Shown piece by piece: positions 1,225 through 19,713 of a stretch of 64,000 nt of DNA (positions are counted from its first letter, which is position 1; each line of letters begins with the position of its first letter). Under the pieces are notes generated by a model, which saw nothing but the letters and a program-made list of their open reading frames with translations, was not told where the DNA came from and ran no database searches. The position numbers and the translations under genes are program-made. Source of the DNA: Candidatus Gastranaerophilales bacterium (GTDB lineage: Bacteria; Cyanobacteriota; Vampirovibrionia; Gastranaerophilales; Gastranaerophilaceae); assembly GCA_944322945.1 (NCBI GenBank), contig CALUQN010000004.1, positions 62,001 through 126,000 on the forward strand, in the 5' to 3' direction.

Positions 1225-1863
1225 ATGAACTATTTTGAAATAATAAACAAATGCCTTGTTGAATTAGGATACAAGCAGGTGGGCGCGTTTGCTGAACTCA
1301 CCAAAAATGATCACAAAAAATTGAAAAATATAGTAAACATAATAAATAATACAATTTGCCGCAATGACAACTGGTATTTCCTTATGCGCAAAACGACATT
1401 GCCGTTAAAAGCCGGTGAAACAGAACTGAAAAACACCATTAACGGCAGAATAATAAAGCTTGTAATAGACAATCAGGAATACAATTACCTGATAAATTAC
1501 GAGGACTATGTTTCAAAACGTATTCCGGAAAAAAGTTTCACAGTCTGTGGTGATAAACTTGTATTCCCTGAATTTGATGCGGATAAGAGCATAGAAATAA
1601 CTTATTATACAAAAAATACTACAGTATCGTCAGACGGTACGGAAAAAGCATCTCTCGAGACTGAAACGGATGTTTCACTTATTCCGGATCCGTATGCGGA
1701 ACCACTGCTTGTATATGGAGCATGCCTCAGATTAAAAGCCAATCCCCAGCATGTAAAATTCAGCTACTGGTATGGCATGTATAAAGATGCGCTTGCAGAT
1801 ATGAAATCACAGATTTCAATATCAGCAAAAGAAATGCCATATATAAAGATGCACCGCAGATAA
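1225..1863 (+). CDS. Phage head-tail adaptor-like protein
   Basis: A 212-residue protein; the ATG has a strong AAAGGAG site at 1211-1217. The layout matches podoviral adaptor proteins (P22 gp4/SU10 adaptor type): an N-terminal helical segment, a beta-rich middle (residues about 50-135), then a C-terminal helix pair with the pattern LIPDPYAEPLLVYGACLRLK followed by a conserved-looking Y/W-rich helix. Such proteins form the ring between the portal and the tail nozzle. The family assignment is from pattern memory, not alignment. The gene ends a block; 360 bases without genes follow. Confidence 0.55.
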   Translation: MNYFEIINKCLVELGYKQVGAFAELTKNDHKKLKNIVNIINNTICRNDNWYFLMRKTTLPLKAGETELKNTINGRIIKLVIDNQEYNYLINYEDYVSKRIPEKSFTVCGDKLVFPEFDADKSIEITYYTKNTTVSSDGTEKASLETETDVSLIPDPYAEPLLVYGACLRLKANPQHVKFSYWYGMYKDALADMKSQISISAKEMPYIKMHRR

Positions 1864-2222
1864 TCCTGAAGCTAAGTCCCTGATTGCGGTAGTGCATGCT
1901 TGCCCAACTGGAAATTCTTAAAAGTAACAGCAGGTCAGGCTTAATTGAGTAAATAGTGAGTAGTGAATAGCAACTAAGTGATTAGTCTTAGCGCTTACGC
2001 GCAGCTGTTACTGTAGGTCAGGCACTGCCTGACAGTAATTTACTTAAAAGGCATGGCGATTCGAATACTTGCCCAACGCGCCACCACGTGAAAATTCGGG
2101 CAAAAAAAACAGGAAGTTTTCATTCCCCCCTGTTAAGATTTACACTAGCCGAAATATAAATAGCATGTTTATTATAACTTTTTTTTGAAAAAAAAGCAAA
2201 TTTTGATAAGAAATGTAAAAAT
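1864..2222. other. Gene-free region with host-type palindromic repeats
   Basis: This gap inside the phage module carries copies of repeats found elsewhere in the window. One is AGCGCTTACGCGCAGCTGTTA next to a GTCAGGCACTGCCTGAC palindrome (about 1989-2036), matching 43339-43384. The others are two fragments containing TTGCCCAAC (about 1900 and 2070). An AACAGG...CCTGTT hairpin lies near 2110-2136. The presence of host-type repeats suggests the phage module has resided here long enough to be invaded, or that recombination joined two blocks at this point. A promoter for the small-terminase block probably lies at 2140-2210, but no clear consensus was seen. Confidence 0.55.
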
Positions 2223-2666
2223 ATGTCAAACAAAATGAAACAATTAACCTCCCAGCAAAAGCTGTTTGTAGCCGAATATATCAAGACTCTTGACGGCGAA
2301 GATGCGGCTAAAAAAGCCGGATATAAATCAAAAGATATTAAAGAGACCGCAAACCGGCTCCTTGCTGAAAATCATATAGTAAAAGAAATAAAAAACCAGA
2401 TAAATAGCCAGATTTCATCACTACGTGTTCATAAAGGCTATGTTATCCAAAAACTTCTACAGATAGCGGAATTTTCGCTGACGGAAGAAGATATCACAGA
2501 CAAAGACGGCAACTACACCGGCAAAAAGAAACTCCGTGACACAGGTGCCGGTCTCAGAGCGCTTGAGAGTTTGTGCAAGTACCTCGGTATAACTTCAGAC
2601 GAAGGTGAAGCTTACAAACCTGCCAAAATAATTACTATCTCAAACCTTGATGATGAAAAAATCTGA
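2223..2666 (+). CDS. Phage terminase small subunit
   Basis: A 147-residue protein with the Terminase_2 pattern at residues 6-50: LTSQQKLFVAEYIKTLDGED, AAKKAGYKSK, then a leucine/valine-rich segment ending in IVKEIKNQI. Small terminases bind the pac/cos DNA site and present DNA to the large subunit. The C-terminal half carries the usual charged linker and a short segment probably used for oligomerisation. It opens the second phage block, followed by a hypothetical gene, an acetyltransferase and the portal. The ribosome-binding site is weak. Confidence 0.85.
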   Translation: MSNKMKQLTSQQKLFVAEYIKTLDGEDAAKKAGYKSKDIKETANRLLAENHIVKEIKNQINSQISSLRVHKGYVIQKLLQIAEFSLTEEDITDKDGNYTGKKKLRDTGAGLRALESLCKYLGITSDEGEAYKPAKIITISNLDDEKI

Positions 2667-2689
2667 ACCAAAAGAAAGGACTAAAAAAC

Positions 2690-3049
2690 ATGAAAAACAA
2701 AAAAGATTTGGAAGCCATCCTGATAAATAAAACAACTATGGATGACTTGATAAATATGAAAATAGAAAATGAGTTTATGCGCGAAATGTCAGATGCCGGA
2801 CGACAAAAAAAGAAAAAAGTCATTACTGACATAAAACAGGTGCCCAAAGGTCTTCTGTTCAGCAAGAATGCCGTATTCAGACTTTTTAACCGTAATACAA
2901 AGACCGAAACAACAATAAACGGATTGCAGGCTGAGGGCATGCTCGGACTGCAAAATTCTGTCCGTGAAAAACTTTTGAAAGGTGAAACCGGAACCTTTGC
3001 AACTGAAGATGCTTATATAAGATTTGAAAAACTATGTTTAATTTCTTAA
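2690..3049 (+). CDS. Phage protein of unknown function
   Basis: A 119-residue basic protein with good start context (AAAGAAAGGA upstream of the ATG). The C-terminal half (RLFNRNTKTETTINGLQAEG, then a TFATEDAYIRFEKL segment) looks like a compact alpha/beta domain; I do not recognise a family. Its 3' end overlaps the acetyltransferase gene by 16 bases, so the two are probably translationally coupled. The position between small terminase and portal suggests a packaging or head-assembly accessory, but nothing in the sequence proves it. Confidence 0.6.
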   Translation: MKNKKDLEAILINKTTMDDLINMKIENEFMREMSDAGRQKKKKVITDIKQVPKGLLFSKNAVFRLFNRNTKTETTINGLQAEGMLGLQNSVREKLLKGETGTFATEDAYIRFEKLCLIS

Positions 3050-3591
3050 CAATTACTCTCGATAAAACCCGTGAGGTAAATCATGTCAGAACTTTACCTC
3101 CTTTTTGTCATTTACCCCGCCTTTTCTTTTTATACAAAAGGTATGAAAAATATCTGCACGACGATTACACGGAAAAAATGAATTTTAAACAATTCATAAC
3201 ACTTGCAGTCAATAACAGATTTTTCTGGTTAATAACGGAAAAATTGAGCGGTAAACCCGCAGGATTTGTATATTTGGATAACATAACCGGAAATGATACG
3301 AGTCTTTACAGTGCGGAGATAACAACCTGTTTTGAAAAATCTTACTGGGGTGAAAAAACTCATATCTGTGCAATGGAATTTTTCGAACTTATATTTAAAA
3401 AATTCGGGTTTTACAAGATACGAGCACAAATTTACCCGCAGAATTTCAGAGTCAAAACCCTTCTGCAAAAATGCGGATTTATAAAAGAATGTACCCTGAA
3501 AAATGAAACCATGCTCAACGGCAAACTTCAGGACATAGAACTGTATGCACTATTCAACAAAAAGAAATGCGAGGAACTTAATGAAAATTGA
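3034..3591 (+). CDS. GNAT-family N-acetyltransferase within the phage module
   Basis: A 185-residue protein with a GNAT layout: a central strand AGFVYLDNI (about residues 72-80), an ITTCFEKSYWGEKTH segment with the G-containing acetyl-CoA loop region, and a C-terminal FYKIRAQIYPQNFRVKTLLQ-KCGF motif (about residues 129-152), typical of the RimJ/RimL-like 'N..S..l.eK.GF' end. The acyl acceptor is unknown. Acetyltransferases occur as accessory genes in phages and can modify host or virion proteins. The gene overlaps both neighbours (16 and 11 bases), so it is expressed with the structural genes rather than as a separate cargo gene. Confidence 0.7.
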   Translation: MFNFLTITLDKTREVNHVRTLPPFCHLPRLFFLYKRYEKYLHDDYTEKMNFKQFITLAVNNRFFWLITEKLSGKPAGFVYLDNITGNDTSLYSAEITTCFEKSYWGEKTHICAMEFFELIFKKFGFYKIRAQIYPQNFRVKTLLQKCGFIKECTLKNETMLNGKLQDIELYALFNKKKCEELNEN

Positions 3592-5248
3592 AACAGATGA
3601 TTTAACAGTACAGATAAACGATACCGAAGAAAAATTTTTAGCAAACTGTATTATCAAGAAATATGACACACTGGAAAACGAGCGGTTACCGCAGATAAGC
3701 GACATCAAACTTATCAGAAATTCCATCTATAATCAGACAATCCCCAAAATTAACGCCTGGGAAAGTACGATTGAACTGCCTGATATATATGAGCTGGCGC
3801 AGACTTTAAAATCACATCTTGCGCAAAATTTGTATTCTCATCCGGACGCCATGTTTGATGTAACTGGCACGTCGCCGGAAACACAGGAATTTGCAAATAA
3901 ACAAAAAGCAATGCTGGTTAATACCTTTGAGCAGATGAAGTTTGAAGACGAAATGGAAAAAATAATTGACAGCGTAGTTGAAACCGGAGAGTGCACGCTT
4001 TTTGTAGGCTGGGAGACCCGTATAAAACAGGTAAGACGTCAGCTGACACCGGAAGAACAGCTATTTAATCCCGATAATAAAAGTTTTGTGGTTGAAGAAA
4101 AATTAATCTATGACAATGCAAAAATTAAACACATAAAATCGGAGGACTTTGTATTTGAAAAGTGTTCAACTTCAGACTGGGACAACTGTGCCAAAATTTA
4201 CAGGACATATTCGTCACTGGAGGAGATTGTCGGAGACAAAGCAAACAATATGCTGACGGAAGAAAAACTGGAAACACTGAAAGGAGTGATGGCGAAGAAC
4301 AAAAAAGAAACTACCAAAGCCGTCGAAGAAAACAAGCTGGAAATTTTGGAATACTGGGGCGACATAGAACTCTCGGACGGAACTGTCTTAAAGAATAAAT
4401 TGGCAGTAATTGCAGGACGTCAGGAGCTTATCAGGTTTGAATCAAACCCGTTTGTAATCAATCCGTTTATCCATGCGAATATAATCGAAAATCCGACGAC
4501 AGGACGGGGAATTTCACCGCTTAGGGTGGCACTTATTCTGAACAATCTCGCATCTACAATTTTGAACAAGCAGATAGATGCGCTTGCTTTGATGATGAAT
4601 CCGCCGTACTTGGCGCCGAAAGGCTGTTTCAGAGGTCAGCAGGATGTTCAGCCGGGTAAAATTATTGAATATGATGCTGCCTTGATGCCAAACCAGCCGA
4701 TACCGTTGAGCTTTGACAAAGCAATGCAGGGCTGGGATTTCCTTAATTATTTCAAAGCCACAATTGAAAGTGCTACAGGAATTTTCAAGAATATGGCAGG
4801 CAATATCCAAACTCAGGAGAGAACTGCTACAGAACTTAATTATTCCGCCAACGGTCAGGAGGCACGGCTTAACCTTATTATTGAATCTATAAACCGCAAA
4901 ATTCTGATACCAACCATAGAAAAAACTGCAGAAATCATCTCAAATTTCAAACTTGGTGAAGAAACCATAACGCTAAATAATCATGGTAAAACGGAATTTA
5001 TTAACATAGATGACAATATACGAAACGCCAATTATATATACCGTTACGGCGACAGAAAGGCGAATTTTGAACGAAAATCAAAACTGAAGGAACTGTTTGA
5101 AATAGTAAGTTCATTTGCGCAGGTAGACGTTGTCGCACAAAGAATAGACTGGATAGAGTGTTTCAAATTTGCCCTTGAACAGTACGGCGTTGAAAATTCC
5201 AATAATTTTCTGCTTGAAAACCCGCAGGGTAATAATCCAAATGCTTGA
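3581..5248 (+). CDS. Phage portal protein
   Basis: A 555-residue protein. The ATG at 3581 is chosen over an upstream in-frame ATG at 3545 because it has GAGGAA at the right distance and gives a short 11-base overlap with the previous gene. Size, the N-terminal segment with several tryptophans and prolines, a middle region (about residues 290-330) with INPFIHANIIENPTTGRGIS and a LNNLASTILNKQIDAL helix, and a C-terminal wing/helical part fit podovirus-type head-tail connector (portal) proteins. The portal forms the 12-subunit ring through which DNA is packaged. No frameshift or truncation is visible. Confidence 0.75.
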   Translation: MKIETDDLTVQINDTEEKFLANCIIKKYDTLENERLPQISDIKLIRNSIYNQTIPKINAWESTIELPDIYELAQTLKSHLAQNLYSHPDAMFDVTGTSPETQEFANKQKAMLVNTFEQMKFEDEMEKIIDSVVETGECTLFVGWETRIKQVRRQLTPEEQLFNPDNKSFVVEEKLIYDNAKIKHIKSEDFVFEKCSTSDWDNCAKIYRTYSSLEEIVGDKANNMLTEEKLETLKGVMAKNKKETTKAVEENKLEILEYWGDIELSDGTVLKNKLAVIAGRQELIRFESNPFVINPFIHANIIENPTTGRGISPLRVALILNNLASTILNKQIDALALMMNPPYLAPKGCFRGQQDVQPGKIIEYDAALMPNQPIPLSFDKAMQGWDFLNYFKATIESATGIFKNMAGNIQTQERTATELNYSANGQEARLNLIIESINRKILIPTIEKTAEIISNFKLGEETITLNNHGKTEFINIDDNIRNANYIYRYGDRKANFERKSKLKELFEIVSSFAQVDVVAQRIDWIECFKFALEQYGVENSNNFLLENPQGNNPNA

Positions 5249-5285
5249 TGGCAGCACGCAAAAAACTATGATAATATAAAACAAT

Positions 5286-5789
5286 ATGAGATGGCAGAGC
5301 AAAATCCTGTTTTTAATGTTATTTTTCCCGATGCTGCTTGTCGGGATACTGTTTTCGTATCTTAGCATGAATGAGCTTGCGGAAACTGAAAAAGCGCAGT
5401 CGCAAGCTGCAGCACAAAAAGCTGAAGACGAAGATGAAGAACTGAATAATCCTATGCTTTGGCCGGAAGAACGCAAGCGGCTACGAGAAAAACGCCGGCT
5501 TGAACGCGAGGCACAGATGGCGGAACAACTTGGACAAACGCAGCTGGAAGAAAATACTGCCGCTGCCGATAGTGCCGATGATTATATTGATAATTCACAA
5601 CCGGAAGAAGACGTGACTGACAGCGGATATGAAGATGAAAACAGCAGTGAAGAACCCTATGAAGAAGACTCTTCACAAGCTGAATTTGATAATGATACCC
5701 CGGAACAATCACACCAAAATGAATATGCTCCGCCAGCCAAATATCCGGAACAGACTCTGGAAGAGATACCTATAGAAGAATTTCAATAG
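5286..5789 (+). CDS. Acidic phage protein of unknown function, possible membrane anchor
   Basis: Up to 167 residues. From the first ATG the protein starts with a strongly hydrophobic segment (residues about 7-27), followed by a very acidic, Glu/Asp/Gln/Pro-rich tail with a short basic coiled-coil stretch (ERKRLREKRRLEREAQ). No convincing ribosome-binding site precedes 5286. A second in-frame ATG at 5367 would remove the hydrophobic part, leaving an acidic scaffold-like protein. A different frame in the same first 80 bases encodes a short phage-like peptide (5290-5364, see findings). The start is therefore uncertain; I do not recognise a family. Confidence 0.5.
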   Translation: MRWQSKILFLMLFFPMLLVGILFSYLSMNELAETEKAQSQAAAQKAEDEDEELNNPMLWPEERKRLREKRRLEREAQMAEQLGQTQLEENTAAADSADDYIDNSQPEEDVTDSGYEDENSSEEPYEEDSSQAEFDNDTPEQSHQNEYAPPAKYPEQTLEEIPIEEFQ

Positions 5790-5810
5790 AGAATAAGATT
5801 ATAAAATTGA

Positions 5811-5842
5811 AATAACCACCTTGGTTCAAGGTGGTTATTTTC
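5811..5842 (+). terminator. Rho-independent terminator between acidic gene and large terminase
   Basis: A perfect 13-bp stem, AATAACCACCTTG (5811-5823) with CAAGGTGGTTATT (5827-5839), three-base loop GTT and a following T run. It stands 25 bases before the large-terminase start, so the terminase may have lower or separate expression. Confidence 0.85.
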
Positions 5843-5866
5843 TTGTACACAAGGAAAATAGCAACA

Positions 5867-7156
5867 ATGGAATATAAACTACTAAAGGCACAGCGTGAAT
5901 TTTTAGAGATACCGCATAACTATACTCTGGATGTTGCAGTATATCAGGGCGGTTACGGGTCCGGCAAGACTTTTGCAGGTTCCTTGCTCGGAATATTATT
6001 ATGTATGAAATTCCCGGGGATACGCGGGCTTGTGGGGGCGCAGACTTATACACTCGTGCGGGATACCACCCTTCAAACATATCTTGAACATCTTGATAAC
6101 ATGGGCTTTCAGGAAGGAATTGATTACGAATGGTCGTCCACTTTGCAAAAACTGGTATTCAGAAACACTTCGGAAGTTCTTTTCAGGCACTTTGACGAAC
6201 CAAATAAACTGAAATCTCTAAATCTTGGTTTTGCAGAGATTGAGGAGATGTCCGACATCCCGTATGAAACTTTCAAAATGCTTCTTGGCAGAATGCGCCA
6301 GCAGCCTAAAAAAGAATGGCAAAATTTTACCTACAGAATATTCGGGCACACAAACCCCGAGACACAAAAAGGCTGGGTCTATAAAACTTTTGCGGAAAAT
6401 CCCGCCCCGAATTACCGCCTGATAACTGCGCCGACAACCCAGAATATTTACCTGCCGAAAGGTTTTTGCGATGAATTGAAAAAGATTTACGACGAGCAAT
6501 ATTATAATATATTTGTCCTTGCACAAAACGGCGAATACAACAAAGGGCTTGTAATAAAAGATTTTACGGAAGAAAATATACGGGAAATAAATTACCAGAA
6601 CGATTTGGACTTACACATCAGCTGTGATTTTAACGTTGATCCGATGTGCTGGGTTCTGGCACACAAGACGGACGAAAAAGTCTTCTACTTCGATGAAATT
6701 GTGCTGGAAAATACAACGACCGCAAAAGCTTGTGAAGAATTCTGCCGGCGCTATCCCGCTCATAAAGGTGCAATAATCGTCAATGGCGACGCCTCCGGAG
6801 ATAACAGAAGCTGCACAAGTGAATACACAAATTACGTAATAATTAAAAAGAAACTCCAACAATACGGCTACGACGCCGATATAAAAATAAAAGCCTTCAA
6901 TCCGCCTATAAAAAACAGAATAGCAGCCTTCAATGCCAAAATAAGGAACGCTGAAGGGGAAATCTGTCTTTATGTGGATAAAAAATGCGAAAAGCTCCTC
7001 TACAATATTTATAATCTTAAATATAAAGAAGGCTCATCACGCATAGATATCCCCGCTTACACCCAGATAAAACAAAATAAGGAGCTGAAATTTTTGTCAC
7101 ATCCTATAGATGCGGCGTCATATCTGGTTGATTTTTATTGGCCGATAACCCTTTAA
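5867..7156 (+). CDS. Phage terminase large subunit (ATPase-nuclease)
   Basis: A 429-residue packaging motor. The ATG at 5867, with AAGGAA at 5851-5856, is preferred to the upstream ATG at 5831, which lies inside the terminator hairpin. Walker A is GGYGSGKT (residues 28-35) and a Walker B-type segment GFAEIEEM falls near residues 121-128. The C-terminal nuclease domain begins around HISCDFNVDPMCWVL (about residue 245), whose Asp is the expected first metal ligand, with a later NGDASGDNRS segment. It cuts concatemeric DNA and pumps it through the portal. The small terminase and portal lie upstream, an unusual position for this gene. Confidence 0.9.
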   Translation: MEYKLLKAQREFLEIPHNYTLDVAVYQGGYGSGKTFAGSLLGILLCMKFPGIRGLVGAQTYTLVRDTTLQTYLEHLDNMGFQEGIDYEWSSTLQKLVFRNTSEVLFRHFDEPNKLKSLNLGFAEIEEMSDIPYETFKMLLGRMRQQPKKEWQNFTYRIFGHTNPETQKGWVYKTFAENPAPNYRLITAPTTQNIYLPKGFCDELKKIYDEQYYNIFVLAQNGEYNKGLVIKDFTEENIREINYQNDLDLHISCDFNVDPMCWVLAHKTDEKVFYFDEIVLENTTTAKACEEFCRRYPAHKGAIIVNGDASGDNRSCTSEYTNYVIIKKKLQQYGYDADIKIKAFNPPIKNRIAAFNAKIRNAEGEICLYVDKKCEKLLYNIYNLKYKEGSSRIDIPAYTQIKQNKELKFLSHPIDAASYLVDFYWPITL

Positions 7157-11445: not shown

Positions 11446-11490
11446 ACCTATTGTGGTACATTAATGTACAAGTTACTACCACCTATAGGT
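11446..11490. promoter_or_regulatory. Nested inverted repeats, candidate operator of the XRE regulator
   Basis: An outer repeat pairs ACCTATTGTGGTA (11446-11458) with TACCACCTATAGGT (11477-11490), one base longer. Inside is the perfect 12-base palindrome TACATTAATGTA (11457-11468). The region lies between the divergent starts at 11442 and 11507. XRE regulators commonly bind such dyads. Binding is inferred. Confidence 0.55.
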
Positions 11491-11506
11491 GTCATGGGGG
11501 AATAAT

Positions 11507-12187
11507 ATGAAAAAAGCTTTTACACTTGCAGAGGTTTTAATTACGCTGGGGATAATCGGTATAGTTGCAGCTATGACATTACCCACGCTAATTCAAGATT
11601 ACAAAAAGAAAGTAGTAGAAACTCGTCTTGCGCATTTTTATACAGTAATAAATCAGGCTATTCGTCTTTCGGAAGCAGAAAACGGGGATAAAGCATACTG
11701 GTTTGAGAATGCTGGCGGTTGGAATGAAGATCGTACAGAAAATGCAAAACTTGTATGGATGCAAAAATACATATTACCATATATGAACGGGGTCAGATGT
11801 GTAATGCATGACGGTATGTACGCAGACTTACCGGTATGTTATCTGCCTAACGGAGGCGCATTTGCAAGTTATAATACATCAACAATAAACAGAGATTGGA
11901 TATACTGGCCGGGTGATCCAATGAAATGTGCCCCTTCACTTCAAGATAATGTTGGCACGTGTTCATTTGCTTTTTACTACAATCCGCATTCTACACGCAA
12001 TAACCCGTCAAATAACTCTTCAAAAAACTGTATAGAGCCTTGGAAGCTGGGGTGGGACGGAACTAAAGAAATGTTGTATCGTGAATGCCAGAATACATCA
12101 GAAAGCTATGACAGACCATGTGCCGCAATAATTCAATATCACGGCTGGAGAATCCCTGATGACTATCCGTATCAAGTCAGATATTAG
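11507..12187 (+). CDS. Type IV pilin-like protein (prepilin N-terminal motif)
   Basis: 226 residues from the ATG at 11507, which has GGGGGAA upstream; the longer GTG start is not needed. The N-terminus MKKAFTLAEVLITLGIIGIV is a textbook prepilin signal: a short basic leader, F-T-L-x-E with Glu at +5 of the mature form, then a hydrophobic helix. The globular part is rich in Cys (seven or more), Trp, Asn and Tyr, and ends with PCAAIIQYHGWRIPDDYP, suggesting a disulfide-stabilised pseudopilin or minor pilin. It would be processed by a prepilin peptidase and assembled by machinery not in this window. Divergent to an XRE regulator. Confidence 0.85.
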   Translation: MKKAFTLAEVLITLGIIGIVAAMTLPTLIQDYKKKVVETRLAHFYTVINQAIRLSEAENGDKAYWFENAGGWNEDRTENAKLVWMQKYILPYMNGVRCVMHDGMYADLPVCYLPNGGAFASYNTSTINRDWIYWPGDPMKCAPSLQDNVGTCSFAFYYNPHSTRNNPSNNSSKNCIEPWKLGWDGTKEMLYRECQNTSESYDRPCAAIIQYHGWRIPDDYPYQVRY

Positions 12188-13732: not shown

Positions 13733-14638
13733 TTGATAAAAAAAATTCTGTCCTTAATTATCACATTCACGCTGTTAGCGGCGCCATTGACTGCCGCGCA
13801 GGATGTGCAGTATGATTTCAGCGACGAAGCACAGATAAAGTTTAACCAGAACGCAGATATTTATAAACCGATAAATACAAATTTTCAGGAAAACTCAACG
13901 CCCGTTACAGAAGAACACAAGTTTAAACGGGTAAAAGAAAAGAAAAAACATCAAGAACAATCCCAGATTGAAGAAATTCATCTTGAAACACCCGCTGAAC
14001 TTCCGAAAATTGAAGTTCCGAAATACGACCCGAAAGCTAAACTGCTAGGCAAAGTTGTTTACGTCCCGCAGGGCACGGTTCTTAATGTCCAGCTCCAGTC
14101 AGGAATAAGTTCGGGCAGTTTAGACGAAAACGACAGGCTGACCGCGGTATTACCGGAAAATTGGGTTTACAACGGGAACCTCATTGCACCTGCCGGCAGT
14201 CTTGTGTACGGCACTGCTATTGATGCGACGCCTGCCGGATATGCTTACGGAAGCGGCGCTATGGAGCTTGTGTTTGATAAAATTATGACCCCTGACGGTC
14301 AGGTTTATAACATTAACGCCGAAAAAATACGGCTGGAAGCGGATAGCAGCCGCGGCAAAAATATGACAAGAGATGTTCTGGTAGGTGCCGGCATAGGTCT
14401 TCTGGCAGGGTTATTGATGACAGCACTCGGCGGAGGATATTACGGCGGTGATAATGATTATGCCCAGGCAATGCTTATATATGGCGCCGCAGGCGCCGCA
14501 GGCGGAGGCATAAAAGGAATTGCTTCCCGCGGGGAGAATGTTTCCATAGCTCCGGATACGGTTTTGCAGCTTAAACTTCTTGAACCGCTCGAGGTTATCC
14601 CCCAAAACGTTGATACACAATTGCCTAATCAGTTTTAA
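13733..14638 (+). CDS. Exported VirB10/TrbI-like C-terminal domain protein
   Basis: 301 residues from a TTG start with AGGTTAAG upstream. An N-terminal signal peptide (residues 1-22, ending near ...LTAAQ) is followed by a charged, Lys/Glu-rich linker to residue about 95. The domain from GKVVYVPQGTVLNVQLQSGI through LIAPAGSLVYGTAIDATPAG resembles the OMP-pore domain of VirB10/TrbI/TraB. A glycine-rich hydrophobic stretch (GAGIGLLAGLLMTALGGGYY) interrupts it at about residues 218-265. This suggests a periplasmic or outer-membrane protein, though no other type IV secretion genes are seen. It precedes the VWA gene by 35 bases and probably leads the envelope cluster. Confidence 0.6.
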   Translation: MIKKILSLIITFTLLAAPLTAAQDVQYDFSDEAQIKFNQNADIYKPINTNFQENSTPVTEEHKFKRVKEKKKHQEQSQIEEIHLETPAELPKIEVPKYDPKAKLLGKVVYVPQGTVLNVQLQSGISSGSLDENDRLTAVLPENWVYNGNLIAPAGSLVYGTAIDATPAGYAYGSGAMELVFDKIMTPDGQVYNINAEKIRLEADSSRGKNMTRDVLVGAGIGLLAGLLMTALGGGYYGGDNDYAQAMLIYGAAGAAGGGIKGIASRGENVSIAPDTVLQLKLLEPLEVIPQNVDTQLPNQF

Positions 14639-14673
14639 TATGTTAAAATTTATGCAAATAAAGGATGTTTTTT

Positions 14674-15342
14674 ATGAATAAAAGGTTAATTACTTTAGGG
14701 TTGATAATTCTGGCAGTGTCGTTGGTTCTGGCTTTTGTCGTTTCGCTCGCCAGAAAAATTAAAATCGACGACTTTCACCCTGCTGCTGTAATTTTTGTTG
14801 TGGATTCTTCTGCCTCAAACCAGTCTAAGCTGCCGGAGCAGAAAAAAACTCTTCGACAAATCTGCAATATTTTAGACCCTGAAGATCAGGTTAAAATTAT
14901 CAAAGTGTCAGAAGATTCATATCTGATTTATGAAGGCACCCCGCACAACGGGAGCGGAATTACAAAAGCTATGGATGCTTTTACGGAGTTTGACCCGAAC
15001 GATTACGGCACCGCTTACGGCGTGGGGCTTAAAAAAGCCATGAATCACGCGCTCACTATGTACGGAGAAGGCTACATCCCCGCGGTTGTGGTCATAGGTG
15101 ATTTGGAAAATGAGGGCGCTGTGGATAAACAAATTAACTGGGATACTTTAGCGCAAAATGTTGCTAATGTTAAAGCACAGGCTCCTGAATTGGCTATGAT
15201 GTTTTTGTATGCCCATCCGGAAAAACTGGATAAGGTGAAAGAGCTGCTTTCTCCTGTTCTCGGCGAAACTAAACTTGTTATTTCGCCAGAACAAACTATA
15301 GACAAATCAATCAGAAAATTTCTCCACGCAATCGGAAGATAA
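14674..15342 (+). CDS. Membrane-anchored von Willebrand A-like domain protein
   Basis: 222 residues from the ATG at 14674 (AAAGGA at 14660-14665). One N-terminal membrane segment (residues about 5-27) is followed by an outside-facing domain that starts AAVIFVVDSSASNQ. D-S-S-A-S fits the metal-ion-dependent adhesion site DxSxS. Later GTAYGVGLKKAM and PAVVVIGDLENEG correspond to the expected MIDAS Thr and Asp loops. VWA domains mediate metal-dependent protein-protein contacts. The gene lies 19 bases ahead of the FHA-like membrane protein and likely shares its operon. Confidence 0.65.
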   Translation: MNKRLITLGLIILAVSLVLAFVVSLARKIKIDDFHPAAVIFVVDSSASNQSKLPEQKKTLRQICNILDPEDQVKIIKVSEDSYLIYEGTPHNGSGITKAMDAFTEFDPNDYGTAYGVGLKKAMNHALTMYGEGYIPAVVVIGDLENEGAVDKQINWDTLAQNVANVKAQAPELAMMFLYAHPEKLDKVKELLSPVLGETKLVISPEQTIDKSIRKFLHAIGR

Positions 15343-15361
15343 CAGAAAGAGGTAATATAAA

Positions 15362-16978
15362 ATGACAATCGTAATTTCATCTTCTAAAAATGAAAAAATT
15401 TTTATTGATAAAGATATGATTAATATCGGCACCAACCCGAACTGTGATTTCCAGCTGGATTTGGATTTTGACCTGCTGATTACGGTTCAGTATGTCAAAG
15501 CTGAAAATAAATGTATTGTTATGAATACATTCCACAGCGATAAAATATTCTTTAAAGGCGAAACTTTCGGCAAAATAGAAGTCGGCAATATCTGCAAACT
15601 TTTGACGGCGGATTCATCAGAGTTTATCAGCATAAGAGTTTTGTCAGAAGAAAACGATTCTCCAAGAAAAACTATCAAAGCTATCGGGGAAGAAGATTTT
15701 ACAGAAAACGATATTAAACGCCTCTACGGAAGTGATTCCGATCCGATTACACGCGTAAAAATCGAAAAGCAAAAAGAAGATATCGAAAGCGCCCGCGTTG
15801 CTATTATTAAGCAGGCCGGCTATACGATTACTGATTTGAAACATAAATTGTCATCCAATTTTAAAACAAGTTTATTTCTGCACATTGCAATGTTTTTCGG
15901 TGCAGTAATGTGTGCTTTCGGATTGTCTAATTATTTGATGGGATTGTCCATTGCAGATTCTGCCAATTATATGCACCTTCCGACAAACATTAAAATCTGG
16001 TTTGTATATTCAATACTTGTTTACGGAATTTGCCTGCTGATGAAACAGGGCGTATATCAGTCTCTGGTTAACAAATCAGTCAGAGACGTTCTGCCGACAT
16101 CACGTTTTGCGGAAACTTTCTTCATCGGATTTGCAACACTTTTAATGCTCGGTGTTTATGCGATTAACCTTGTTTATTTTATGAATGTTAAAGACTTTGT
16201 GGTATTTGCAATATTTATTTCACTGTTCTTTGCCGGTTTAACTGCCGGACTTGCAGTGGGCTGCGGGTATTTTAAATACAGCGGCAACGCGCTTTCTTTG
16301 AGCCTTAACAAACATGAATACAGAGAAGATTTTGAAGCTGTTTTGAAAGCATACAGACAGTGGATTGAAAGATATGTTAACAATCTCGGCAAAACCAAAA
16401 TTCAGTATATAAAAGATAAATTATTCAATTTGCAGATAAAATCGGTATTTGAAATTATAATCGGGCTTTTGACAGCACCGTTTCTGGCTTATGGTGTATC
16501 AAACACTCTTGCAATGTGTTTTCCGGAAGCTGCCGGATGGGTCAGAATTTCCGGCTTGAGAATAAGCCCTGTATTTTTGGTTCTGGCAACATTTTTGATT
16601 ATTTTTGCGTTCTTTTCATTTGTAAGTGCATTCACCAGCACAAAGAAAATTCAAGCCTCGGAAGTTATCAAGCAGGACGGGTTCAGTGATTTTATGCACC
16701 ACGGGGTTGATATTTACGGGCTTGAGGGCGTGAGAAAAATCAATTCAGATAAAGTTCGCGCGTTTGTGATTGCATGTTCAATTATTTTCATTGAATTTTC
16801 AATGAACGTGTCATACTTTATGACCGAAATCGGCGGAGATTTGTCAGGAATTTTCCTGAGCTTAATTGCTGCGCTTGTTCCGACAGCTCTCCTGATTGCG
16901 GAAACGCTTATGCTCAGCCAGACACGTTTTGAAATTTATGCTTGTGATGAACTGATTTCTAAAATTGATAAAGATTAA
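15362..16978 (+). CDS. Large polytopic membrane protein with FHA-like N-terminal domain
   Basis: 538 residues with an AAAGAGG site ahead of the ATG. Residues 1-95 form a beta-rich domain with an FHA-like pattern (DKDMINIGTNPNCDFQLDLD), but the conserved phosphothreonine-binding Arg and Ser are not evident. A charged linker (residues about 100-155) leads to eight or so hydrophobic helices in two groups (about 175-320 and 360-530), with a cytoplasmic-looking charged loop between (about 325-355). I do not recognise the membrane part as a known transporter. Its gap to the next gene is two bases, so it is co-expressed with the TonB-like proteins downstream. Confidence 0.6.
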   Translation: MTIVISSSKNEKIFIDKDMINIGTNPNCDFQLDLDFDLLITVQYVKAENKCIVMNTFHSDKIFFKGETFGKIEVGNICKLLTADSSEFISIRVLSEENDSPRKTIKAIGEEDFTENDIKRLYGSDSDPITRVKIEKQKEDIESARVAIIKQAGYTITDLKHKLSSNFKTSLFLHIAMFFGAVMCAFGLSNYLMGLSIADSANYMHLPTNIKIWFVYSILVYGICLLMKQGVYQSLVNKSVRDVLPTSRFAETFFIGFATLLMLGVYAINLVYFMNVKDFVVFAIFISLFFAGLTAGLAVGCGYFKYSGNALSLSLNKHEYREDFEAVLKAYRQWIERYVNNLGKTKIQYIKDKLFNLQIKSVFEIIIGLLTAPFLAYGVSNTLAMCFPEAAGWVRISGLRISPVFLVLATFLIIFAFFSFVSAFTSTKKIQASEVIKQDGFSDFMHHGVDIYGLEGVRKINSDKVRAFVIACSIIFIEFSMNVSYFMTEIGGDLSGIFLSLIAALVPTALLIAETLMLSQTRFEIYACDELISKIDKD

Positions 16979-16980
16979 TC

Positions 16981-17805
16981 ATGAATATTTTAAAATTTAT
17001 TTCATTAACAACATTAATTGTGATAATAACAGCCGCGGTAATTTTGACAAAACCGGTCATGCACAAACCAGCGGTGCTGGAAGATGCCGCGTTTACTTTA
17101 GCTTCTCTTGAAAAGAAAACTCCGGTCAAAGAAGTCAAAACGGATTTTCCTTCCTCCCTGCCGCCTGCGCAAAAGACAGTTGTCCAAAAGCCTGCGCCCG
17201 TGGTGAAAAGGATTGTCAGAATTGTGAAACAGGAGGTTCCGGCACCCACACAAACTGTCACCGTAAAGCAACACCCCGTTCAGCAAAAACCGCAGCCAGT
17301 CAAGACTGTAACAACTGAAAAAACAGAAGTTAAACTTCCTGTCAAAATACTTGAGACTGCAAATGAACCTGTCGAAATTGAAAAACCGGTTAAACTCGAA
17401 GTTGAAAAGCCCGTCAAAGTTGTTACAACACCTGTAAACACCGCACCGCTCACTGAAAAAGAAGAAATCATTGCCTGGAACAAATGGAGGAGTGATTTGC
17501 AAAACAAGGTTATGCGGGATGCCAAAATAAATGCGCCCGTCGGAACGACTTTTTATTTTTCCTGCACGGTTGATAAGTTCGGTAATATTTCCAACATAAA
17601 CACCTGGTCTGATAACGACTACTACACGCCGCTTGCCAAACGGGTCATAAAACCGGTTCTGAGCAGCTATCAAAACCAGCCGATACTGAAATTCCCGGCG
17701 CGTACACAGCGTACTATTACCAATGTTAACGGCTCTTTTACAATGGCGTTTACTGACCGCTACTCAACTCCTGCGGACTATTCCGATTATGAAAGGATAA
17801 AATAA
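16981..17805 (+). CDS. TonB-like periplasm-spanning protein
   Basis: 274 residues: an N-terminal membrane segment (residues 5-23), a long Pro/Lys/Val/Glu-rich stalk with repeated P-V-K/E-P-V units (residues about 38-160), and a C-terminal globular region (residues about 165-274) whose start, WNKWRSDLQNKVMRDAKINA then GTTFYFSCTVDKFGNISN, resembles the TonB C-terminal/TolA-like fold. It is predicted to stretch through the periplasm from the inner membrane. Translation of a 45-residue membrane ORF begins immediately after its stop. Confidence 0.65.
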   Translation: MNILKFISLTTLIVIITAAVILTKPVMHKPAVLEDAAFTLASLEKKTPVKEVKTDFPSSLPPAQKTVVQKPAPVVKRIVRIVKQEVPAPTQTVTVKQHPVQQKPQPVKTVTTEKTEVKLPVKILETANEPVEIEKPVKLEVEKPVKVVTTPVNTAPLTEKEEIIAWNKWRSDLQNKVMRDAKINAPVGTTFYFSCTVDKFGNISNINTWSDNDYYTPLAKRVIKPVLSSYQNQPILKFPARTQRTITNVNGSFTMAFTDRYSTPADYSDYERIK

Positions 17806-17943
17806 ATGACAAAAAATAAAATTTTTGCAGTTTTAATAATCTTAGCACTAATCTTTGTGACAGCTGCGGCAGTTCACACAAAGCCGGAATTGCACAAAAC
17901 TTTTGAAATTCAGATTTTGAAATTTATAAAGGCTGACAACTGA
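17806..17943 (+). CDS. Small membrane protein in the TonB-like cluster
   Basis: A 45-residue ORF starting with an ATG directly after the TAA of the preceding gene (17803-17805). It ends in a TGA that overlaps the next gene's ATG by one base (TGATG at 17941-17945). The sequence MTKNKIFAVLIILALIFVTA is a single transmembrane helix with a basic start, followed by about 25 mostly polar residues. Both junctions are tight, which strongly suggests it is translated. It could be a remnant of a paralogue's N-terminus, since its layout parallels the first 30 residues of the upstream TonB-like protein. Confidence 0.65.
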   Translation: MTKNKIFAVLIILALIFVTAAAVHTKPELHKTFEIQILKFIKADN

Positions 17944-18941
17944 TGTACAAATGCACTGACTGCGGAAAAATTACAAAAGACAAACCTCAATATTGCGACT
18001 GCGGGAACAATATTTTTGAAGAAGTTGATGCCCCGCAGACCGGCGCCCCAAGCCGCAGAGATTACGGTCTGCATTCCGGTAAGAATAATTTTTCTCTGCC
18101 GGCAGATTTTGACCGGCTGTCAGTTGCGATTTTTGTTATTTGTTTAATCTTAGCGGTAATTCCGTGGTTTTTCGTCCTCAGACCTTTGCCGAAAAACGAA
18201 ACAAAGCATTCAGTAAAACCGGTTGAAGTCAAAAAAAGTCTGCCTGATTTTGAAAGTTTGTGGGACGACACTCCAATTGCACAGCCAACACCTGCGGCAG
18301 AAAATATTGAGCTCCAAACAGTTGAACAGCCGCAGACAATTATTGAATACGTTACCCAGATAGTTCAGGTGCCGCGCCGCGAGCCGAAAGTCACACCGCC
18401 TGCCCCAAAACCTCAATCACAGACTGCCTCACAGCCTAAAAAAGAGGAAGTGAAGCAGCAGCCAAAGCCTAAAACACAAACTCAAAATAAGCCGCAAACT
18501 AAAGATAAACCGGATGTCATTAACCGTATTGAACAAAAGTTAGCGCAAAATTCTGCCCCGTCACAAAAAACTGAAAATCAACAAAAAAGCACTGTAGCAA
18601 AACCACAGCCAAAACCTCAAACACCAAAGCCAACGGCTGAAGAATTAGCTGCCTTAAATCAATACCGAAATAATCTCCGGATGATTTTACTTTCAAAATT
18701 AAATGTCCAAAGTATCATCGGAGAAGGGGAATGCGATATTGAATTTGCCATAGACCGCTCCGGAAAGCTTATTAACCGGAATTTTTCCAAGCAGTCATCC
18801 AACAAAACCCTCAATGATGCTGTTTATTACATGCTGATGAGTGTTCCTGTGTATCAGCCGCCGCCAAAAGCTTACAAAGGCGAGATGATACGTCTGCATT
18901 TTTACATCAATAACGGTTACTACGAAATAAGCTTTAAATAA
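17943..18941 (+). CDS. Zinc-ribbon plus TonB-like C-terminal domain protein
   Basis: 332 residues. An N-terminal cytoplasmic zinc ribbon (MYKCTDCGKITKDKPQYCDC) is followed by one membrane helix (residues about 58-78) and a long Pro/Gln/Lys-rich stalk (residues about 85-235). The C-terminal domain (ALNQYRNNLRMILLSKLNV, then CDIEFAIDRSGKLINRNFSK and VYQPPPKAYKGEMIRLHFYI) matches TonB/TolA C-terminal domains. The cytoplasmic zinc ribbon fused to a periplasm-spanning stalk is an uncommon combination. The start codon overlaps the stop of the small membrane ORF. Confidence 0.65.
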   Translation: MYKCTDCGKITKDKPQYCDCGNNIFEEVDAPQTGAPSRRDYGLHSGKNNFSLPADFDRLSVAIFVICLILAVIPWFFVLRPLPKNETKHSVKPVEVKKSLPDFESLWDDTPIAQPTPAAENIELQTVEQPQTIIEYVTQIVQVPRREPKVTPPAPKPQSQTASQPKKEEVKQQPKPKTQTQNKPQTKDKPDVINRIEQKLAQNSAPSQKTENQQKSTVAKPQPKPQTPKPTAEELAALNQYRNNLRMILLSKLNVQSIIGEGECDIEFAIDRSGKLINRNFSKQSSNKTLNDAVYYMLMSVPVYQPPPKAYKGEMIRLHFYINNGYYEISFK

Positions 18942-18946
18942 ATAGA

Positions 18947-18979
18947 AAAGCCGGTGAAGAAATTATACCGGCTTTTTTG
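18947..18979 (+). terminator. Terminator closing the envelope operon
   Basis: AAAAGCCGGT pairs with ACCGGCTTTT around an 11-12-base loop, followed by TTGTTG. With A- and T-rich flanks it can serve both the + strand operon and the convergent gene at 18988-19713. Confidence 0.8.
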
Positions 18980-18987
18980 TTGTTATA

Positions 18988-19713
18988 TTAGTTGTTATTA
19001 ACTTTATATTCCAATAACATCTCAAGATGTTTGGGAAATTTAGGCGGAAATTTATCAAACGGGGCAGTGTCTTTGATTATATCAAGAATTTCATTGTCAA
19101 TATTCTCTTTGCCTGAAGCATGTTGAAGTTCACATTTGACAATTTCTCCGTCAGAATTTATATTGAGATATATTTTGACAGGGGTTTCTGGTTTGGCGGA
19201 AAGATTTTTATTCAATCTTCTTGTCAATTGCAGGCTGATATCGGACATATAGGCTCTATCTGTATACAAAGAGCCGTACGGCATAAATTGAACAAAGTCA
19301 TTGCTTGCGCCGTCATAAATTTGGATATATTTCAACCGTCCTGACGGATAGTCATAGATGGCATCACTTTTGGGATTGGAAAGTTTTTCCACTGATACTG
19401 CCGTCAAATCATTTGTCTTTTTGTTATAAAGCAGCTCTGCGTAACGATATTGGACGTAATAATAATTTGGATTTTGGTATTTATTTTGTTTGTTTGGGAT
19501 TAAATTTTCATTGTACGTATCAGAAATTTTTCTGGTATCAATTCGTATTCTGGGAATAAGATTTTTGAAGACTTTTTCACTTGCCAGATTAACAAAATTA
19601 TATCCGCCGCTATCCTGTTCTGTCAGCTGATAAGGGACGATAAAATCTTTTGCGTTAACCTGAGAAGCTCCCAGTAAAATTCCGCACAACGCGGTCAATA
19701 ATATTTTTTTCAT
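18988..19713 (-). CDS. Exported TonB C-terminal-like protein
   Basis: A 241-residue protein with a signal peptide (residues 1-21, MKKILLTALCGILLGASQVNA). The middle part is Tyr/Asn-rich. The end (residues about 160-241: AKPETPVKIYLNINSDGEIV, then KCELQHASGKENIDNEILDI and FDKFPPKFPKHLEMLLEYKV) carries the TonB_C pattern of the 'energy transducer TonB' family. It lacks a membrane anchor, so it would be free in the periplasm or attached to a partner. It is the third TonB-C-like protein in 3 kb, convergent with the cluster. Confidence 0.6.
   Translation of the reverse strand: MKKILLTALCGILLGASQVNAKDFIVPYQLTEQDSGGYNFVNLASEKVFKNLIPRIRIDTRKISDTYNENLIPNKQNKYQNPNYYYVQYRYAELLYNKKTNDLTAVSVEKLSNPKSDAIYDYPSGRLKYIQIYDGASNDFVQFMPYGSLYTDRAYMSDISLQLTRRLNKNLSAKPETPVKIYLNINSDGEIVKCELQHASGKENIDNEILDIIKDTAPFDKFPPKFPKHLEMLLEYKVNNN

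Follow-up and report, generated by a model that had tools for sequence, protein, structure and literature searches.

The 64,000-nucleotide stretch of DNA analyzed here, referred to as the window, comes from a Candidatus Gastranaerophilales genome of 2.1 Mb that is 98.6% complete, and contains six plus-strand genes, A to F, followed by a convergent gene, G. The A–F set is a real, conserved and lineage-specific envelope operon with a TonB/TolA-like anatomy and a new membrane protein, C. All seven open reading frames (ORFs) named in an earlier reading of the sequence alone (the original prediction) were located at their positions by an ORF check of the window (Table 1). Genes A to F are almost contiguous, with successive gaps of 26, 19, 2, 0 and −1 bases. 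Over the locus region, predicted promoter-like matches are close in number to those in shuffled sequences (20 vs 15.6) and terminator-like matches are above them (13 vs 7.0); none falls in the gap between F and G.

Table 1. Genes A to G, with positions numbered from the first letter of the window.
Gene	Position	Strand	Features
A	13733–14638	+	TrbI/VirB10-like, signal peptide (exported); TrbI stretch at amino acids (aa) 110–196 (14060–14320); Gly-rich hydrophobic hairpin at about aa 212–262 (14366–14518)
B	14665–15342	+	Single N-terminal transmembrane (TM) segment and VWA domain (14788–15111) with metal-ion-dependent adhesion site (MIDAS) DxSxS...T...D
C	15362–16978	+	Predicted FHA-fold domain, aa 1–95 (15362–15646), and about 8 TM helices (aa 160–538)
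D	16981–17805	+	N-terminal TM, KPxMHK motif, Pro-rich linker, predicted TolA-III/TonB-like C-terminal domain, aa 154–260 (17440–17760)
E	17806–17943	+	45 aa, single TM
F	17943–18941	+	Zinc ribbon CxxC-x10-CxCG (17952–18005), TM (aa 61–79), Pro-rich linker, TonB_2 domain (18660–18884)
G	18988–19713	−	Exported, TonB_2 domain (19042–19224), no TM anchor; convergent

Conservation and distribution of the operon

Gene order was examined in 40 neighbourhoods from 99 related genomes and in 80 further loci, those of the 80 best-ranking among 329 relatives; 106 distinct loci remain once the C sequences common to both sets are removed. The order B-C-D-F is intact in 77 of the 106. D adjoins C in 102 and B adjoins C in 98, and F lies in the same gene run as C in 87. 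The tight order that the original prediction had singled out is thus kept in relatives, where the neighbours are conserved together, and because this order persists while the flanking genes vary, A to F are taken to be genes and not chance ORFs. Alignments of the family members comprise 114 rows for B, 121 for C (107 distinct sequences), 116 for D and 96–97 for F. Some genomes carry two copies of the operon, and four of the second copies (L054–L057) read A-C-D-F, without B. PlsY, whose gene neighbours A, was rejected as a candidate partner; it is divergent and lies at most three genes away in 12 of the 40 loci.

C was matched in 42 of the 99 relatives and B in 41, the latter being exactly the genomes with a full-length C. 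The only C-matched genome without B, G040, has a C match limited to a 96-residue N-terminal piece. A 100-aa frame on its contig C3 (23550–23837, within L169) matches only the FHA part of C, and no B, D or F was seen among the genes called nearby. Wider searches found C in 138 of 289 genomes of the class and in 128 of 386 genomes of the phylum, the latter all within the family of the window; both tallies include the g38 genomes, whose matches (E about 1e-22 to 1e-27) probably cover the short N-terminal piece only. An exception to this family limit is G075, a 66% complete genome from another family that has both C and B. No match to C was found in 72,556 plasmid records or in phages. Within this sampling, nearly all carriers of the operon belong to the gut family Gastranaerophilaceae, and no description of it appeared among the papers listed by searches of the open-licence PMC literature.

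Domains of the encoded proteins

The AlphaFold2 model of C, computed with 57 relatives and the window protein, has a predicted local distance difference test score (pLDDT) of 77.5 and a predicted template modeling score of 0.53, and shows an all-beta N-terminal domain followed by about eight membrane helices. Residues 1–95, with a pLDDT of about 78, superimpose on FHA-1 of Rv1747 with a Z-score of 12.7 over 93 aligned residues at 2.3 Å, and Foldseek returned an E-value of 3.2e-3 against FHA. According to the model, then, the N-terminal domain of C adopts the FHA fold. The FHA-like label of the original prediction holds at this level, but not in Pfam, where 41 C members gave no match to FHA or to PF01618 and only scattered weak matches, nor in the ligand site. 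Phosphothreonine-binding FHA domains carry the residues G-R and S-x-x-H. In C, position 24 is T, S, N or G, with R in none of the 121 rows, and position 43 is Q in 94 rows and E in 22. With the canonical phosphothreonine-binding Arg missing throughout, phospho-sensing by C is doubtful. A PDB sequence search with C gave no match, and from these sequence comparisons C appears to found a new family with no consistent Pfam match.

The membrane half of C contains ten residues that are identical in all 121 rows: E364, T371, T382, H447, E478, N482, S500, T508, E514 and T515. An internal duplication of helices 1–4 and 5–8 was considered and rejected (hhalign 0.9%). Comparison with known folds gave helical PDB rows at TM-scores of only about 0.1–0.2 in a list filled by FHA rows, a search that barely probes the membrane half.

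D and F share the architecture of TonB and TolA arms. A single TM segment on the N-terminal side is present in 115 of 116 D rows and in all 96 F rows, and the linkers of the window proteins contain 13.7% (D) and 16.1% (F) proline. The AlphaFold2 model of D (67 relatives and the window protein; mean pLDDT 75.0, with blocks at about aa 161–260 reaching 92–98) starts with a single helix at the N-terminus, which is followed by a disordered linker and a domain of the order helix-strand-strand-helix-strand. The top 20 structural matches of this domain are all TolA-III or TonB, with Z-scores from 7.7 to 3.7, and the next, unrelated, scores 3.5; a TolA-III/TonB fold is predicted accordingly by the model. 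The zinc ribbon of F is formed by Cys 4, 7, 18 and 20, which are invariant in 30 of 30 sequences, and its motif is found in 95 of 97 rows. The F profile matches TonB structures with an E-value of 0.0025 and the C-termini of TonBs encoded in ExbB operons with hhalign at 97.4%.

Three TonB-C-type proteins had been proposed for the locus. G exceeds the Pfam cut-off for TonB_2 (E 2.1e-6, 28.2 vs 22 bits) and F is borderline, 0.1 bit under it (E 1.9e-4, 21.9 vs 22 bits), while D qualifies by predicted fold only: the window protein has no Pfam match and 38 D members gave only single weak ones. In NCBIfam searches with A to G, only G was named TonB-family, below the cut-off, all other matches being weak and sub-threshold. 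The inclusion of G in the cluster had to be given up. It occurs near the operon in only 6 of the 40 neighbourhoods and 21 of the 80 further loci, and is a local neighbour rather than a core member.

Two further TonB_2 proteins were observed in the source genome. A 117-aa exported protein on contig C12 (L167:5866-6219) has, like G, little beyond the TonB_2 domain. On contig C23 (L168:132-4927), a protein with an acidic stretch, a TM segment and a TonB_2 domain stands beside genes that were labelled by eye as sigma-factor-like and zinc-ribbon NTPase-like. Unanchored TonB_2 domains may be a recurrent feature in this group.

E resembles a copy of the TM and KPxxHK segment of D that lacks the linker and the C-terminal domain. 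In 50 of 97 loci, D and F are separated by one or more small ORFs, mostly bearing a KPxMHK-type motif, and some loci encode a second small protein with two helices.

A had been described as VirB10-like, which stands in part. The protein matches the TrbI domain in Pfam with an E-value of 4.7e-6, as do 15 of 27 family members at E ≤ 0.1, but the score is below the cut-off (27 of 35 bits) and the match covers only positions 1–84 of the 188 in the profile; six members match Gly-zipper_YMGG. A also differs from VirB10/TrbI of type IV secretion in having a signal peptide and not an inner-membrane anchor. For B, the expected VWA domain is confirmed by Pfam (VWA_2, E 1.7e-7, 32.3 bits vs a cut-off of 27) and by the MIDAS, with DxSxS in 109, GTA in 108 and GDLE in 106 of the 114 rows. 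The N-terminal flank of its TM segment is more positive than the C-terminal one in 89 of 113 sequences and less positive in 5, which places the VWA domain outside the cytoplasm.

A second, exported VWA family, above the Pfam cut-off for VWA, adjoins the operon in 11 of the 40 neighbourhoods with 15 proteins in all. Examples with a MIDAS lie at L053:6706-7623, L069:6534-7466 and L049:12279-13199. Three of the four copies of the operon without B have one to four such genes, in tandem in some, just upstream of A and divergent from it, and the fourth (genome G013, L055) has a VWA match just upstream of A, as judged by the position of the match. Full-length relatives (E < 1e-60) occur in 13 of the 99 genomes, all 13 with C; with weaker relatives included, 84 of 99 genomes are positive, whether or not they have C. 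The source genome has only a weak relative (genome G000, contig C10).

The proposed trans-envelope complex and its alternatives

Our best explanation, which we hold with moderate confidence, is that A to F encode a trans-envelope complex. C would be its inner-membrane platform or hub, on which D, E and F would each dock with a single TM helix, D and E through their common KPxMHK motif. D and F would cross the periplasm by means of the Pro-rich linkers, and their C-terminal domains would pair with a partner on the outer-membrane side. The best candidate for this partner is A, of which a relative is encoded directly upstream of TonB-ExbB-ExbD. In the source genome, the protein in that position shares 31% identity with A (E 8e-20; hhalign 99.9%), and two TrbI-like proteins head the TonB-ExbB-ExbD-ExbD operon (contig C2, L166:7134-11432). 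An A relative occurs in 20 of 21 ExbB neighbourhoods; in 18 it stands directly before TonB, as does the second of these two TrbI-like proteins. The VWA domain of B, or in some genomes that of the exported VWA proteins encoded next to the operon, may bind a ligand or an adhesin. If the arms transmit force, the driver would be either C itself, with its invariant membrane Glu residues, or the one ExbBD motor of the cell.

Several observations weigh against this explanation. Only 51 of the 106 distinct loci have A immediately upstream of B or C. The family of A has nine matches at E ≤ 0.01 in the source genome, so the specificity of its placement beside TonB may be overestimated. The Z-score of 7.7 for the D domain is within the range in which the comparison tool warns of common arrangements, though the top 20 rows are all TolA or TonB, and by sequence the domain is weak (hhalign 5.8% to TonB, 34% to F). 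An acidic residue is absent from the TM segment in 94 of 101 D proteins, which therefore have no ExbD/TolR-like proton site there. The mean net charge of the TM flanks of F is 0.55 before and 1.23 after the segment, a pattern that the positive-inside rule would not predict if the zinc ribbon were cytoplasmic. An ExbB-like nature of C was considered and rejected, hhalign of its membrane half against 20 ExbBs giving 0.5%. Finally, what the data show are the gene order, the co-occurrence, the sequence features and the predicted folds; the assembly, the topology of F, the contact with A and with the outer membrane, the use of energy and the function are inferred.

To our knowledge, the TonB/TolA-type arms described so far are powered by ExbB/TolQ-like motors (see also PMC12204202). 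The operon resembles TonB-ExbB-ExbD and TolA-TolQ-TolR in the design of D and F and in the relative of A beside the TonB-ExbBD genes of the genome, and differs from them in the lack of ExbB/TolQ and ExbD/TolR, in the sequence of C, and in the additional VWA, FHA and zinc-ribbon domains. Among the called genes of 120 operon loci, no ExbB or ExbD match was found in 119; the sole exception is an ExbB/MotA-like gene of 255 aa on the opposite strand in L156. The original prediction was right for the region in seeing no ExbBD nearby, and a genome search located a single TonB-ExbB-ExbD-ExbD operon, with one PF01618 (ExbB) and two ExbD genes, on another contig. Its claim that the arrangement has no described counterpart also survives, given the conserved synteny, the lack of consistent Pfam or PDB sequence matches to C and the single ExbB-like gene in 120 loci. 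The complex may also couple cytoplasmic sensing to the outer membrane, as the original prediction suggested.

It is possible, although we consider it improbable, that D and F are driven by this one ExbB-ExbD-ExbD motor, C serving as a scaffold or regulator that lends it to a second set of transducers. Several TonBs run on one ExbBD in many bacteria, and the motor is at hand: the source genome has a single PF01618 match and two for ExbD, and PF01618 is present in all 99 relatives. The same ubiquity makes PF01618 uninformative by co-occurrence with C: ExbB is equally common in genomes without C. The motif S-x3-H also argues against motor sharing. It is found within the first 90 residues of 17 of the 19 TonBs encoded in ExbB operons, which served as a positive control, and in the TM segments of none of 101 D, 85 F and 99 B proteins. 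The A-D-F set thus looks TonB-type, with an ExbB docking signature that was lost or never present. In our view, a device independent of ExbBD is likelier than one that shares it.

B was also compared with the vWA force transducers encoded beside tolQ-like genes, which are described (Mol Biol Evol 2025, PMC12204202) as carrying either SHLS or an Asp-containing helix like that of TolR. Both are membrane-anchored VWA proteins within trans-envelope gene sets. As far as that description extends, B differs in having no S-x3-H, an Asp or Glu in the TM segment of only 1 of 99 proteins, no long linker, and C as its neighbour.

A passive tether or sensing bridge is an alternative to which we give a similarly limited chance. 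D and F would connect A or peptidoglycan with the inner membrane, and C and F would relay a signal, with no force involved. The operon contains no motor gene, and both the zinc ribbon and the FHA domain are interaction domains. A precedent within the cyanobacterial phylum is SjdR of Anabaena, a TonB-like protein with a septal and structural, likely non-transport, role in the account of PMC8262864; in that account SjdR is without the TonB C-terminal domain, and the parts considered describe no such operon. Against passivity speak the invariant Glu478, Asn482 and Glu514 in predicted membrane helices of C, which exceed the needs of a scaffold. Arms without a motor-docking motif beside a different polytopic protein raise the question of whether another membrane engine exists or the fold now serves, by reuse, as a passive bridge.

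Less likely still is a device for surface adhesion or gliding that works like the Glt/CglB focal-adhesion machine of Myxococcus. The two repertoires match, with an FHA domain, TonB-like arms, a VWA surface protein and a zinc ribbon, which GltJ also carries. The exported VWA genes adjoining the operon fit this reading, as do their full-length relatives, all in genomes with C; the weak relatives, found regardless of C, do not. The arrangement of domains also speaks against it. GltG is a bitopic protein that carries both FHA and TonB, as described in PMC3169522, and CglB is presented as a surface protein with a VWA domain that Glt retains (PMC13104615), whereas in the operon FHA and TonB reside in separate proteins, C has about eight TM helices and no homology is shown. 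No AglRQS-type motor was found in the operon among ExbB-type matches, no search having been aimed at Glt families, and the papers listed by the literature searches showed no gliding of this group. A single PF01618 gene is commoner in members of the family with C (30 of 40) than in those without (6 of 20; p 0.0017, uncorrected for ancestry), the extra genes being, in our reading, MotA. Complete flagellar gene sets were reported in 3 of 9 Gastranaerophilales genomes of one study (PMC4040986). This flagellar trend agrees with a gliding device, but may reflect shared ancestry. Membership of the operon in the Myxococcus Glt/CglB machinery is not supported, and none of the known systems compared here matches the operon.

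We regard as equally unlikely that C is the founder of another envelope motor, unrelated to ExbB, TolQ and MotA. An ion-driven protein with eight TM helices and an FHA domain would then pull or turn the arms D and F, docked via KPxMHK, a motif common to E, and would act on an outer-membrane assembly of A and VWA proteins. C as an engine is permitted by the membrane glutamates and proven by nothing. That the operon is what remains of a type IV secretion or conjugation system, or an offshoot of one, as the TrbI match of A could suggest, is highly improbable, this match being partial and below the cut-off, C having no match on plasmids and the relative of A sitting with TonB-ExbBD.

Through this operon, the poorly cultured gut Gastranaerophilales gain a lineage-specific and testable surface or envelope trait.

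Other observations in the window

Upstream of the operon, positions 1225–7156 of the window contain phage packaging and head genes identified by Pfam (an SU10-type adaptor, the small and large terminase, and a head-tail connector), and the region is likely a prophage. A prepilin-like protein with an N_methyl motif and DUF6613 is encoded at 11489–12187, and relatives of it lie near the operon in several loci.

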